The notes below the pieces were generated by a model. It was not told the origin of the DNA and searched no databases. It saw only the letters and a list, made by a program, of their open reading frames with translations. Below, in pieces: positions 32,225 to 38,583 of a DNA stretch of 64,000 bases. Each line of letters starts with the position of its first letter. Within the stretch, counting starts at the first letter, position 1. The DNA comes from Gammaproteobacteria bacterium. GTDB lineage: Bacteria > Pseudomonadota > Gammaproteobacteria > GCA-002705445 > GCA-002716945. The position numbers and the translations under genes were made by a program. Location: assembly GCA_016779485.1 (NCBI GenBank), contig JADHNN010000005.1:18246-82245 (forward strand), given 5' to 3'.

Positions 32225-32497
32225 CTATTCAGCAGTTTTTGGACTAATAATATTTTTAACTTCAGAAATACTATTTGCAGGAAATCCACCTGTACTAGCA
32301 TGATCTTTAATTAACTGCTCATTATCAGCATTGTATACACAATATACTTTATCGCCAGTTACGTAGCTTTGTACCCATTCAATGCCTGTACCCATATCTT
32401 TTAAGATACCGCATGATTTTTGTGAAATACCTTGAAGATCATCTTGTGTTAAATCACCAGCTCCAGCTATTTCTCTTTCAATTACATATTGTGGCAT
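32225..32497 (-). CDS. DUF4242 family small protein
   Basis: 90 aa, recognised by its opening YVIEREIAGAGDLT, SYVTGDKVYCVYNA, and HASTGGFPANSISEV; these are hallmarks of DUF4242, whose Streptomyces member SCO4226 binds nickel. Ferredoxin-like alpha/beta fold inferred. A strong GGAGGAG Shine-Dalgarno precedes the ATG, unlike most genes here, suggesting high expression. Monocistronic, bounded by the hairpin in der. Function unknown. Confidence 0.85.
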   Translation of the reverse strand: MPQYVIEREIAGAGDLTQDDLQGISQKSCGILKDMGTGIEWVQSYVTGDKVYCVYNADNEQLIKDHASTGGFPANSISEVKNIISPKTAE

Positions 32498-33784: not shown

Positions 33785-36565
33785 ATGAGATTATCTAGAA
33801 TAAAATTATCAGGCTTCAAGACATTTGTTGATTCAACATCATTAAATTTTCCAAGTAATTTAACAGGTATAGTCGGTCCTAATGGTTGCGGTAAATCAAA
33901 TATAATAGATGCCATCAGGTGGGTAATGGGTGAATCATCTGCAAGAAACCTTAGAGGAGAAACTATGGATGATGTCATCTTCTCTGGATCCTCTTCCCGG
34001 AGCGAAGTTAGTCATGCCAGCATTGAGTTATTATTTGATAATTCGAATAATAAATTAGATTCTAAATTTGCTAAATTTTCTGAAATCCTTATTAGAAGAG
34101 AAGCAAATCGCGATGGGACATCATCATATTTTTTAAATAATACAAGATGTAGAAGAAAAGATATTAGGGAAGTATTTTTAGGAACCGGACTAGGCCCACG
34201 AAGTTATGCAATCATTGAACAAGGAATGATATCTAAAATAATAGACTCAAAACCTGATGAACTAAGAACATATCTAGAGGAGGCTGCAGGAATAAGCAAA
34301 TACAAGGAAAAACGAAGAGAAACAGAACTCCGACTAAAGCATACTTCTGAAAACTTAAAAAGACTTAATGATATTATGAGAGAGATTAATTCTTCACTTA
34401 CAAAATTACAAAAACAAGCTAATGATGCTGAATTATATAAAGATCTTAAAAACACGGAAGAAGCACTTAGGATTAAGATATTAGCCAAAAAAATTATTAA
34501 TCTTGATAAGAAATTAGAAGATACACAAAAAAATAGCACTGATAATATTTTGCAAAAGGAAAAAATACAATCTGATATAACTGGTTGTTTGAGAGAAATA
34601 GAAGATTTGAGGTTAGCAAGGGATAATGAGCAACAGGAATATAATAAAATTCAATCGGAATCATTTCATATTGCTGCAGAAATTGCTAGAGCTGAAAAAG
34701 ATATTGAATATACACAACAGATTGAAACAAGTAAAAAAGATAATATAAATGATATAAATAAAGAAATAGATAAAATACAAAAAGAGATAGATGAGTTAAA
34801 TGAAAAACAAGCTACAAATAATCAAGTAATTGTTATTTACGAAAACGAAAAAAATGAGCTTGAAGAAAAAATAAAAAATATTGATAAAGATATAAAAGAC
34901 TCATCTTTTTCACTACAAAACTGGCAGTCTAATTATAATTCATTTCTAGCTGATAAGCTTGAATTACAAAATAAGATTGAGCTAGAAAAATCAAAAATTG
35001 AGGCATTCGTTGATAATATAAATAATCTTGAAAAAAGACTTAAAAAATTTAATGAATCAGATAGTGATAAGGATAATAATATCCAAATAGAATTACTTGA
35101 TCAATCCGAGTCATATCAGAATGCTCTTATGAAATTCAAAGTTGATTTTGATAGAAATCTCAATAACTTACCAAAAGATATTATTAGTCCTTTAAATTTC
35201 AAAATAAACAAGTTAATTGATGAATTCAAAAAAATTATAATCAAAATTAAAGAAAACAATAAATCAATTAGTCAACAAATTAAGGACATAAAAAATAACA
35301 TTAAACTCTATAAAGATAAAATCAATTCATGTGAAACTACATTAGTCAAATACACTAAGGATTTAGACGAATTCGAACAACATAAAACCCAACTTGAAAA
35401 ACATAAACTCGATTTAAAGCAAACATATGACAAACTTAACTGGCAATTTAATGAATCATCCGAAGATATTAATGCTAATAATGTTCGTATCACAACTCTC
35501 AAAACAGAAATATTATCATTCACACATAATCTCTCGAGAGCAAAAGCTGACATTGATGTACTTACTCAAAAAAAACAAGACATTCTTTCAGATTCAAGTC
35601 AACCAGAAGAATCAAATATACAAAGTAGACTCAATAAATTCATTAATTTGAAAAAAGAAAAAGATTCAGAGCTTAGAATACTGCAAGATAAAATATCCAA
35701 TATTGATGTGAGTACCAAAAATAAAGAAGATGAATTAAATTCTTTTTCTAATGATAAGAATACTATAGAGCAAGCTATTAATGATACAAATATAACTCTA
35801 ACTGAAATTAAAACAAATAAATCATCCCTTCTAGAGAATTCTGAATATGGAAACGAGAAAATTATTGATACTATCAAGAACATTGACGATGAACCTCTGC
35901 AGGTAAGTGAAAATACATTAGTTGATGTAAAAAATAAAATTGATAAATTAGGTGCGATTAATCTTGCAGCTATAGATGAACTTAAGGAAAATACTGAAAG
36001 AAAAAATTATTTAGATAAGCAATATGATGATCTTACTAATTCTGTCTCAACTCTAGAGAATGCAATTAAAAAAATTGATAATGAAACAAAATCTAAATTT
36101 AAAGATACATTTGATTCTATAAATAAAAACCTGTCGTACTTCTTCCCAAAAATATTTGGTGGAGGAAAATCATATCTTGAGTTAACAGATAATGATTTAT
36201 TAAATACTGGTGTAAATATTATGGCTAAACCACCGGGAAAATTAGTAAAAAACTTAAATCTTTTATCAGGTGGAGAAAAAGCTGGAACTGGTATAGCATT
36301 TGTATTTTCTATTTTTAAAATAAATCCGGCGCCTTTCTGTTTGTTAGATGAGGTAGACGCGCCTTTGGATGAAGCAAATAATGAACGTTTTTGTAATGTT
36401 GTAAAAGAGATGTCTGAATCTGTTCAGTTTATATTTATAACTCACAATAAATCAACCATGCAGATTGCTGATGTTCTTTCTGGCGTAACTATGAGAGAGG
36501 CTGGAGTCTCTAAATTAGTATCTGTAAATGTTGATGATGCTCTTGAAATGACTTCTGATAATTAA
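33785..36565 (+). CDS. smc: Smc chromosome-condensation ATPase, short form without canonical hinge
   Basis: 926 aa, against ~1150-1190 for bacterial Smc. Both ATPase head halves are complete: Walker A GPNGCGKSN (31-39), LGPRSYAIIEQGMIS, EEAAGISKYKEKRRET; C-terminal LSGGEKAGTG (827-836), Walker B FCLLDEVDAPLDEAN, and ITHNKSTM. Between them, residues ~175-760 are almost pure coiled coil: no glycine occurs from G267 to G689 and only prolines 463, 469 and 607. The glycine-rich hinge (GRATFLPL- and NPGG-like motifs) is absent; the likely apex is NLPKDIISPLNF at 462-472, splitting two arms of about equal length. Followed by ligA; zipA is missing. A TATAAT at 33766-33771 precedes the start. Confidence 0.9.
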   Translation: MRLSRIKLSGFKTFVDSTSLNFPSNLTGIVGPNGCGKSNIIDAIRWVMGESSARNLRGETMDDVIFSGSSSRSEVSHASIELLFDNSNNKLDSKFAKFSEILIRREANRDGTSSYFLNNTRCRRKDIREVFLGTGLGPRSYAIIEQGMISKIIDSKPDELRTYLEEAAGISKYKEKRRETELRLKHTSENLKRLNDIMREINSSLTKLQKQANDAELYKDLKNTEEALRIKILAKKIINLDKKLEDTQKNSTDNILQKEKIQSDITGCLREIEDLRLARDNEQQEYNKIQSESFHIAAEIARAEKDIEYTQQIETSKKDNINDINKEIDKIQKEIDELNEKQATNNQVIVIYENEKNELEEKIKNIDKDIKDSSFSLQNWQSNYNSFLADKLELQNKIELEKSKIEAFVDNINNLEKRLKKFNESDSDKDNNIQIELLDQSESYQNALMKFKVDFDRNLNNLPKDIISPLNFKINKLIDEFKKIIIKIKENNKSISQQIKDIKNNIKLYKDKINSCETTLVKYTKDLDEFEQHKTQLEKHKLDLKQTYDKLNWQFNESSEDINANNVRITTLKTEILSFTHNLSRAKADIDVLTQKKQDILSDSSQPEESNIQSRLNKFINLKKEKDSELRILQDKISNIDVSTKNKEDELNSFSNDKNTIEQAINDTNITLTEIKTNKSSLLENSEYGNEKIIDTIKNIDDEPLQVSENTLVDVKNKIDKLGAINLAAIDELKENTERKNYLDKQYDDLTNSVSTLENAIKKIDNETKSKFKDTFDSINKNLSYFFPKIFGGGKSYLELTDNDLLNTGVNIMAKPPGKLVKNLNLLSGGEKAGTGIAFVFSIFKINPAPFCLLDEVDAPLDEANNERFCNVVKEMSESVQFIFITHNKSTMQIADVLSGVTMREAGVSKLVSVNVDDALEMTSDN

Positions 36566-36582
36566 TATTTTTCAAATTATTC

Positions 36583-38583
36583 ATGAACAATAAAAAAAGT
36601 ATTTCTAAAAAATATCAAAAACTAATTACCATTATTAATAAACATAATTTACTTTATCACACATACGATTCTCCAGAAATATCAGATAAAGAATATGATC
36701 AACTTTACGCTAATTTAAAACAAATTGAAAATAATAACCCTGAACTAATAGAACCTAATTCACCTACTCAAAGAGTTGGGTCTTTACTACTCGAACAATT
36801 TGATAAAATTAAACATGATTTGCCTATGCTATCTTTATCTAATGCCGCCGATGAATCAGAACTGGAAGAATTTTACAAAAAAATTAATATTACATTAAAC
36901 AATGACAACACTATATTATTTGCAGAGCCTAAATTTGATGGACTTGCTATTAGTTTAACATATATTGATGGAATATTTTCAAAAGCAATAACTAGAGGTG
37001 ATGGATTTATTGGTGAAGATGTTACGCAAAATGTCAGAACTATTAAATCACTACCTTTAAGTATTACTGATAAGAATGTACCTAATAAATTTACATTAAG
37101 AGGCGAAGTTTTTATTGATAAAAAAGATTTCAATAGCATAAATTCTAATCTTAAAAGCAAGAATGAAAAGATTTACTCTAACCCAAGAAATCTAGCTTCT
37201 GGCAGTATAAGGCAGCTAAATCCTAAAATTGCATCTAGTCGTAATCTTAAACTCTTTATTCATGGACTGGAAAATTTCAAACAATTTAATGCTTTTAAGC
37301 AACACCATGAACTTATGAAATTTCTGTCAAGCCTCGGTTTTCCAATAAATAAATATTCTAAATTAACGACTAATCTAAAATCAATATTTAGCTATATAAA
37401 GAACATGAATTCTATAAGAGAAAATATACCCTATGAAATTGATGGCCTAGTCTTTAGAGTTGATGATTTATCTACATACTCACTATTAGGTACTACAAGT
37501 AAAGCGCCAAAATGGGCCATAGCATATAAATTTAAAGCACAAGAGGCATTAACAAAAATTATTGACGTTACTTTTCAGGTTGGACGTACAGGGACAATAA
37601 CACCGGTTGCTGAATTAGAAACTGTTAATATCAGCGGTGTAAACGTATCAAGAGCTACTCTTCATAACTTTTCTGAAATAGAATCTAAAGATATTCATAT
37701 TAATGACTACGTTTATGTCAAACGAGCAGGGGATGTTATTCCTGATATAGATAGAGTAGAACTTAATAAAAGGAAAAATATTACAAAAATTGTAATGCCA
37801 CAAAAATGCCCTAGCTGTAATAGTATTTTAGTTCAAGTTGAGAATCAGATTGCCTATAAATGTCTAAATTCTAAATACTGTACTCCTCAAATTGAACAAG
37901 CAATCATACACTTTATATCTCGTAAAGCTATGAATGTAATTGGTATTGGTAATCAAATAATTAGAGAACTTGTTGCAAAAAAAATTATTTCAAGAACAGC
38001 TGATCTTTATAATCTTAGTAGTTCAGATTTTGAAAAACTAGATAGGGTAGGTGAAAAATCTATTAAAAACTTTTTACAATCTATAGAAGAATCTAAAAAT
38101 GTTTCTTTTGATAAATTTATATATGCACTAGGTATGAAAGAAGTAGGTGAAGCATCAGCTAAATCACTTGCTAATTCTTTTTCTGATATTGATAAATTAT
38201 TAAAATGTAATAATTCTGATTTGCTAAAAATCTCTGATATCGGACCGATTGTTGCAGAAAATATTACTAAATTCTTAAAAGACCGAGATAATTATAATAA
38301 TATTTTAAAACTGATAGCATCTGGTATAAATATTACTTACAATAAGCAAATTCCAAATGACTTTACTGTTGTAATAACTGGGAAATTTGATAATTATTCT
38401 AGACAAGAAATTATTGATAAAATATCTAAGCTTGGTTACAGGGTTATAAGCACTGTTTCAAAAAGAACTAATTTATTGATATGTGGCAGTAAGCCTGGCA
38501 GTAAAAAAAATAAAGCTGAAACTTTGGGGATTAAAATAATCTATGAAGATAGTTTATCTAAGCTTCTCTCAGAAGCTCATTAA
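36583..38583 (+). CDS. ligA: NAD-dependent DNA ligase LigA
   Basis: Seals nicks in replication and repair. 666 aa. Ia domain with [15 protein letters not shown], adenylation motif [11 protein letters not shown] (catalytic Lys), [17 protein letters not shown] fold, four-cysteine zinc finger CPSC...CLNSKYC, HhH repeats, and C-terminal BRCT ([17 protein letters not shown]). Eighteen bases after smc. Its last 26 bases overlap the converging dapD gene. Confidence 0.97.

Follow-up and report, generated by a model that had tools for sequence, protein, structure and literature searches.

The hinge of Smc is regarded as the protein's constitutive dimer interface, and it has been proposed to serve as a DNA entry gate and a DNA-binding site. 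Like the Smc described here, Rad50/SbcC and the archaea-specific SMC-related proteins (ASRP) have an SMC-type head and a coiled coil but no hinge; they dimerise via a CXXC zinc hook (PMC9389158). In contrast, no CXXC motif was found anywhere in the short Smc proteins that we checked, which argues against a zinc hook as the substitute for their hinge, and their sequence places them in Smc. B. subtilis Smc supports normal growth when its hinge is swapped for the unrelated zinc hook of Rad50, which shows that no particular fold is critical for the dimerisation domain (PMC5344682). That protein and ours have a non-hinge dimerisation element in Smc in common, but the former is a laboratory construct, whereas the replacement reported here would be natural, old and all-helical. 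Side-by-side contacts between the arms are documented for B. subtilis Smc, and they probably contribute to dimerisation when the hinge is missing (PMC5526789). MukB and MksB are also bacterial condensin ATPases, some of them from the same class; unlike these proteins with their subunits MukE/F, of which the family search gave no match, the Smc studied here is accompanied by ScpAB.

A "hinge-less" Smc was described from metagenomes in marine Actinobacteria by Sussfeld et al. in 2025 (PMC12153180), so the architecture is not wholly new. Likened by description, the two cases share an Smc head and coiled coil, the lack of a hinge and of a CXXC zinc hook, an origin in ocean bacteria and the absence of a hinge-bearing paralogue alongside, but our lineage is gammaproteobacterial by synteny and tree. 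What is new here is this separate lineage, with orthology, the kleisin, the ParB/parS context, a predicted two-helix cap and the evolution of arm length, including a self-insertion. The literature searched yielded no earlier publication on hinge-less Smc in Gammaproteobacteria. Compared with canonical bacterial Smc (TIGR02168 / COG1196), the protein retains the head, the joint-side motif, the antiparallel arms, the synteny and the association with ScpA-ScpB and ParB-parS, but it has no hinge, its arms are about 60 to 70 residues shorter per side, and they are predicted to end in the two-helix cap.

The stretch of DNA that we analysed (the window, 64,000 nucleotides) contains at 33785-36565 of the + strand a single open frame of 926 aa, which scored 847 bits with the NCBIfam equivalog TIGR02168 (cut-off, 567). 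Halves of an ABC head lie at both ends of the protein, and Walker A, signature and Walker B could all be read directly. The features are as follows.

33785..36565, + strand: smc, hinge-less Smc of 926 aa (TIGR02168, E=2.2e-254; alignment to the full-length Smc model lacks positions 440-726)
33785..34279, + strand: N-terminal half of the ATPase head, aa 1-165, matching solved Bacillus/Geobacillus Smc heads, e.g., 5xg3 and 3zgx
33875-33901, + strand: Walker A, GPNGCGKSN, aa 31-39, read directly
34292..35044, + strand: helices of the N-terminal coiled-coil arm, aa 170-420 (AlphaFold2 helices 170-308 and 317-420; pLDDT mostly 84-91)
35075..35167, + strand: predicted tip helix A, aa 431-461, preceded by a break at 421-430 (431-461 and 429-457 in two AlphaFold2 models)
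35102..35236, + strand: 45 residues, aa 440-484, in place of the hinge and hinge-proximal arms (model 440-726 of 1170; model alignment)
35174..35257, + strand: predicted tip helix B, aa 464-491, followed by a break at 492-494 (two AlphaFold2 models)
35267..36076, + strand: C-terminal coiled-coil arm, aa 495-764 (AlphaFold2), bearing the conserved motif GAINLAAIDE at aa 723-732
36077..36562, + strand: C-terminal half of the ATPase head, aa 765-926 (structure matches, motifs)
36260-36283, + strand: signature, LLSGGEKA, aa 826-833, read directly
36338-36370, + strand: Walker B/D-loop, CLLDEVDAPLD, aa 852-862, read directly
36583..38583, + strand: ligA, directly downstream of smc (Pfam; synteny over ~30 genomes)

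An initial sequence-only reading had stated that the head motifs are fully kept, and indeed Walker A, signature and Walker B/D-loop are complete. Membership in RecN was rejected, the recN model giving 46 bits, far short of its cut-off of 408, and the Smc equivalog being the best match by far; MukB and Rad50 were far below their cut-offs or unmatched in the family search. The neighbouring genes in the window are ordinary. Upstream of smc, a frame at 32225-32497 on the - strand encodes a small SCO4226-like (nickel-responsive) protein according to Pfam, and it adjoins an M23 peptidase and a QueF-like protein.

To locate the shortfall, we used a reference model of 21 full-length gamma- and betaproteobacterial Smc proteins (1170 positions, hinge at about 498-657). 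Model positions 1-439 aligned with aa 1-439 and positions 727-1169 with aa 485-924, leaving positions 440-726 unmatched between aligned flanks. The missing part is thus central, as had been proposed from the sequence, and comprises the whole hinge plus about 60 residues of the N-arm and 70 of the C-arm, for which 45 residues (aa 440-484) substitute. The SMC_hinge model (PF06470) gave no match to the protein even at E<=10, and hhalign of a hinge profile against the mid-region returned a probability of 0.1%, compared to 100% for a split-half hinge used as a positive control. A hidden divergent hinge was ruled out by the model alignment together with this controlled comparison. The alignment gap is the decisive evidence; a missing Pfam hinge match is weak evidence on its own, since it is equally lacking from several full-length Smc proteins of the class (e.g., in G033, G052, and G157). 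The letter counts of the sequence-only reading, no glycine and just three prolines in residues 268-688, were correct: after G267 the next glycine is G689, and the prolines in between are limited to 463, 469, and 607. The absence of glycine is, however, not a diagnostic feature, as the mid-region of other hingeless relatives contains several. Altogether, this is an Smc with an intact ATPase head that has lost its hinge, and the earlier view that such an architecture is unusual for the Smc family is supported.

An assembly error, a frameshift or gene decay might also yield a short Smc, and we consider the chance of this negligible. In the order of the window, sampled with 25 genomes from six genera, PF06470 was found in 0/25 genomes, and the complete Smc proteins were 926-944 aa long, with the same lengths in named public contigs, showing that the hinge-less state is common to the order. 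The architecture recurs in ∼20 genomes of this order, as independent assemblies, and in >100 of another, which excludes an assembly gap or a frameshift whose repair would restore a hinge. Decay is contradicted by dN/dS values of 0.01-0.17 along the gene (0.01-0.03 for the heads and ∼0.10-0.17 for arms and tip, the tip alone being at 0.12-0.17, like the arms), which indicate purifying selection throughout smc. With an intact head, low dN/dS and a recurrent architecture, the gene is not a pseudogene, in agreement with the initial reading. Supply of a hinge in trans was also excluded, since none of the 25 genomes of the order encodes a hinge domain in any other protein.

The ancestral neighbourhood smc-zipA-ligA is retained according to synteny over ∼30 genomes, except that in the family of the window zipA is absent between smc and ligA (gap 36565-36583) and ligA lies next to smc. 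In the other hingeless families with ligA found, a frame of 207-237 aa separates the two genes. ScpA and ScpB were each present in 24/25 genomes of the order, their genes adjoining as an operon in the genome of the window, and ScpA was retained in four further hingeless families (f38, f148, f158, and f32). ParB was found in 16/17 genomes tested and near-parS sites (<=2 mismatches) in 15/17. The genome of the window carries two parS-like sites beside a 367-aa RecF-like frame, ∼460 bases apart (G000:C7:230783-230798 and 231245-231260); near-identical spacing was seen in the relatives G001, G008, G010, and G015. The smc-ligA synteny and the conservation of ScpA, ScpB, ParB, and near-parS sites point to a chromosomal Smc and not to a RecN-like protein, so the protein of the window is very probably the Smc subunit of an Smc-ScpAB condensin.

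To see how widely this form is distributed, we surveyed 276 genomes from the class and then examined 19, most of which had scored low. In all, five other families have hinge-less Smc, with lengths of 932-937 aa in f38, 810 in f148, 730-732 in f158, 733 in f32, and 822-826 in f160, and of 730-1010 aa overall; arm lengths differ between the families. Four of them (f148, f158, f32, and f160) are members of a single large order, which we suspect to be SAR86 or near it, whereas f38 lies outside. Smc was detected in 174/199 genomes of the large order and, among the frames listed, all were <=1010 aa. The carriers thus include the genome of the window and well over 100 related small-genome Gammaproteobacteria. 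All hingeless lineages grouped together in a LigA tree (100/100), in which composition bias is strong. In the Smc-head tree they did not form one clade and three changes were needed, but the well-supported branches force just one change and are compatible with a single origin. A single ancestral hinge loss, retained in several small-genome gammaproteobacterial lineages, is likely from these trees.

Several length variants were also observed. In f158, long Smc proteins of about 1000 aa (995 aa in L157-L164 and L175) were initially suspected to have kept a hinge, but duplicated arm segments were found instead. Both arms are present in a second copy, the N-arm at aa ∼216-335 being repeated at 336-455 and the C-arm motif GAINLAAPEE near 650 and 793, so that the long form resembles a 732-aa Smc into whose tip a second hairpin of arm and tip, copied from its own, was inserted. 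Short and long forms occur inside single genera (g233 and g235). An Smc of f4 (L076, in G027; 1000 aa) retains the hinge with shortened arms, showing that arm shortening is separable from hinge loss. In f28, smc is interrupted by many stops in a 1.0-Mb genome (L116, G180), in which scpA survives as broken remnants, and neither gene was matched in a 0.9-Mb genome (G273), a pattern that we read as stepwise loss of the entire condensin.

AlphaFold2 was run on the full-length protein (pLDDT 69; low head confidence, with 11 sequences and a pTM of 0.30) and on a fragment covering aa 375-575 (pLDDT 85). Both runs predicted the N-arm up to ∼420-424, a break, helix A at ∼430-460, a turn, helix B at 464-491 and, after a break at 492-494, the C-arm. 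The arm end is thus predicted to be a discrete two-helix hairpin cap (aa ∼430-491). The turn noted in the sequence-only reading, NLPKDIISPLNF at 462-472, is present, with its position corrected to 461-472; instead of being a simple coiled-coil turn, it is flanked by the two extra helices. Among 28-residue windows of the arms, hydrophobicity peaks at aa 465-492, which coincides with tip helix B (0.47 versus an arm mean of 0.28). In f158, f148, and f160 the top window likewise falls at the tip, making 4/5 families; in f38 it is near the head, away from the tip. This hydrophobicity suggests a surface buried beyond the intramolecular coil, most simply by tip-to-tip packing. Tip conservation within f1 was no higher than that of neighbouring arm segments, and hhalign gave probabilities of 0.1-2% for homology between the tips of most pairs of families (28% for f148-f160), so these comparisons do not support a homologous tip domain common to all families. 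Given both observations, the tip contact may have evolved fast or may differ among families. When the tip fragment was compared with PDB structures by Foldseek, all matches were generic helical ones, none at E<=0.001.

We propose that the protein belongs to a hinge-free Smc-ScpAB condensin whose chains are joined by helical caps, with a probability of roughly 60%. The replaceability of the hinge by an unrelated domain (PMC5344682) and the contacts between arms (PMC5526789) favour such an arrangement. The gene is orthologous to other smc genes and, on this view, vertically inherited, the hinge and ∼60-70 arm residues per side probably having been lost in a common ancestor. Each chain would fold back via its two-helix cap, and two chains would meet at their caps, packed as a helical (four-helix-like) bundle, with side-by-side arm contact assisting. 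ScpA, together with ScpB, would link the two heads into a closed ATP-driven ring or rod, which ParB would load at parS and which head engagement and disengagement would move along DNA. We infer that the loop-forming function is retained. For one element of this scheme, a tip-to-tip contact of two Smc hairpins replacing the hinge as dimer contact, the balance tips slightly in favour.

Of the three options raised from the sequence, dimerisation by another surface fits best. The chains might instead be held together by ATP-dependent head engagement, the ScpA bridge and arm-arm contacts, with a tip that merely caps each coiled coil, in which case the complex would be an open V or rod and not a ring closed at the tips. 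The ordinary conservation of the tip compared to the arms, the lack of recognisable homology between family tips and the side-by-side arm contacts of B. subtilis Smc (PMC5526789) all fit this arrangement; we nevertheless hold it to be unlikely, as the most hydrophobic window sits at the tip in most families and the predicted tip forms a distinct unit of two helices, more than a minimal turn. A separate protein could also bridge the two tips and do the job of the hinge in trans, using the hydrophobic tip as a binding site within an otherwise canonical complex. We judge this improbable, with no hinge-domain protein elsewhere in the genomes of the order and only ordinary genes around smc, and the unknown partner that had been invoked is not needed. 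Finally, the hinge-free hairpin resembles RecN-type rods, and the protein might have abandoned the condensin role for that of a RecN-like or head-only repair rod. The far better score of the Smc equivalog than of the recN model, the smc-ligA orthology and the retention of ScpA, ScpB, ParB, and parS-like sites make this option of the sequence-only reading very improbable.

If the cap-joined condensin is correct, a ParB-loaded Smc-ScpAB works without the hinge fold and without any DNA-binding or gating activity of a hinge. We give even odds to a history in which one ancient hinge loss led to a gammaproteobacterial radiation with a condensin joined via an evolved all-helical cap, its arms freed to vary and, in one family, lengthened again through self-insertion of an arm-and-tip hairpin into the tip. 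Taken with the actinobacterial case, our results suggest repeated losses of the hinge among ocean bacteria. For B. subtilis a series of arm lengths has been engineered, and the variation in arm length seen here is its counterpart in nature. A natural experiment on whether the hinge is needed thus seems to have been run, and the role of the hinge can be tested with natural proteins.
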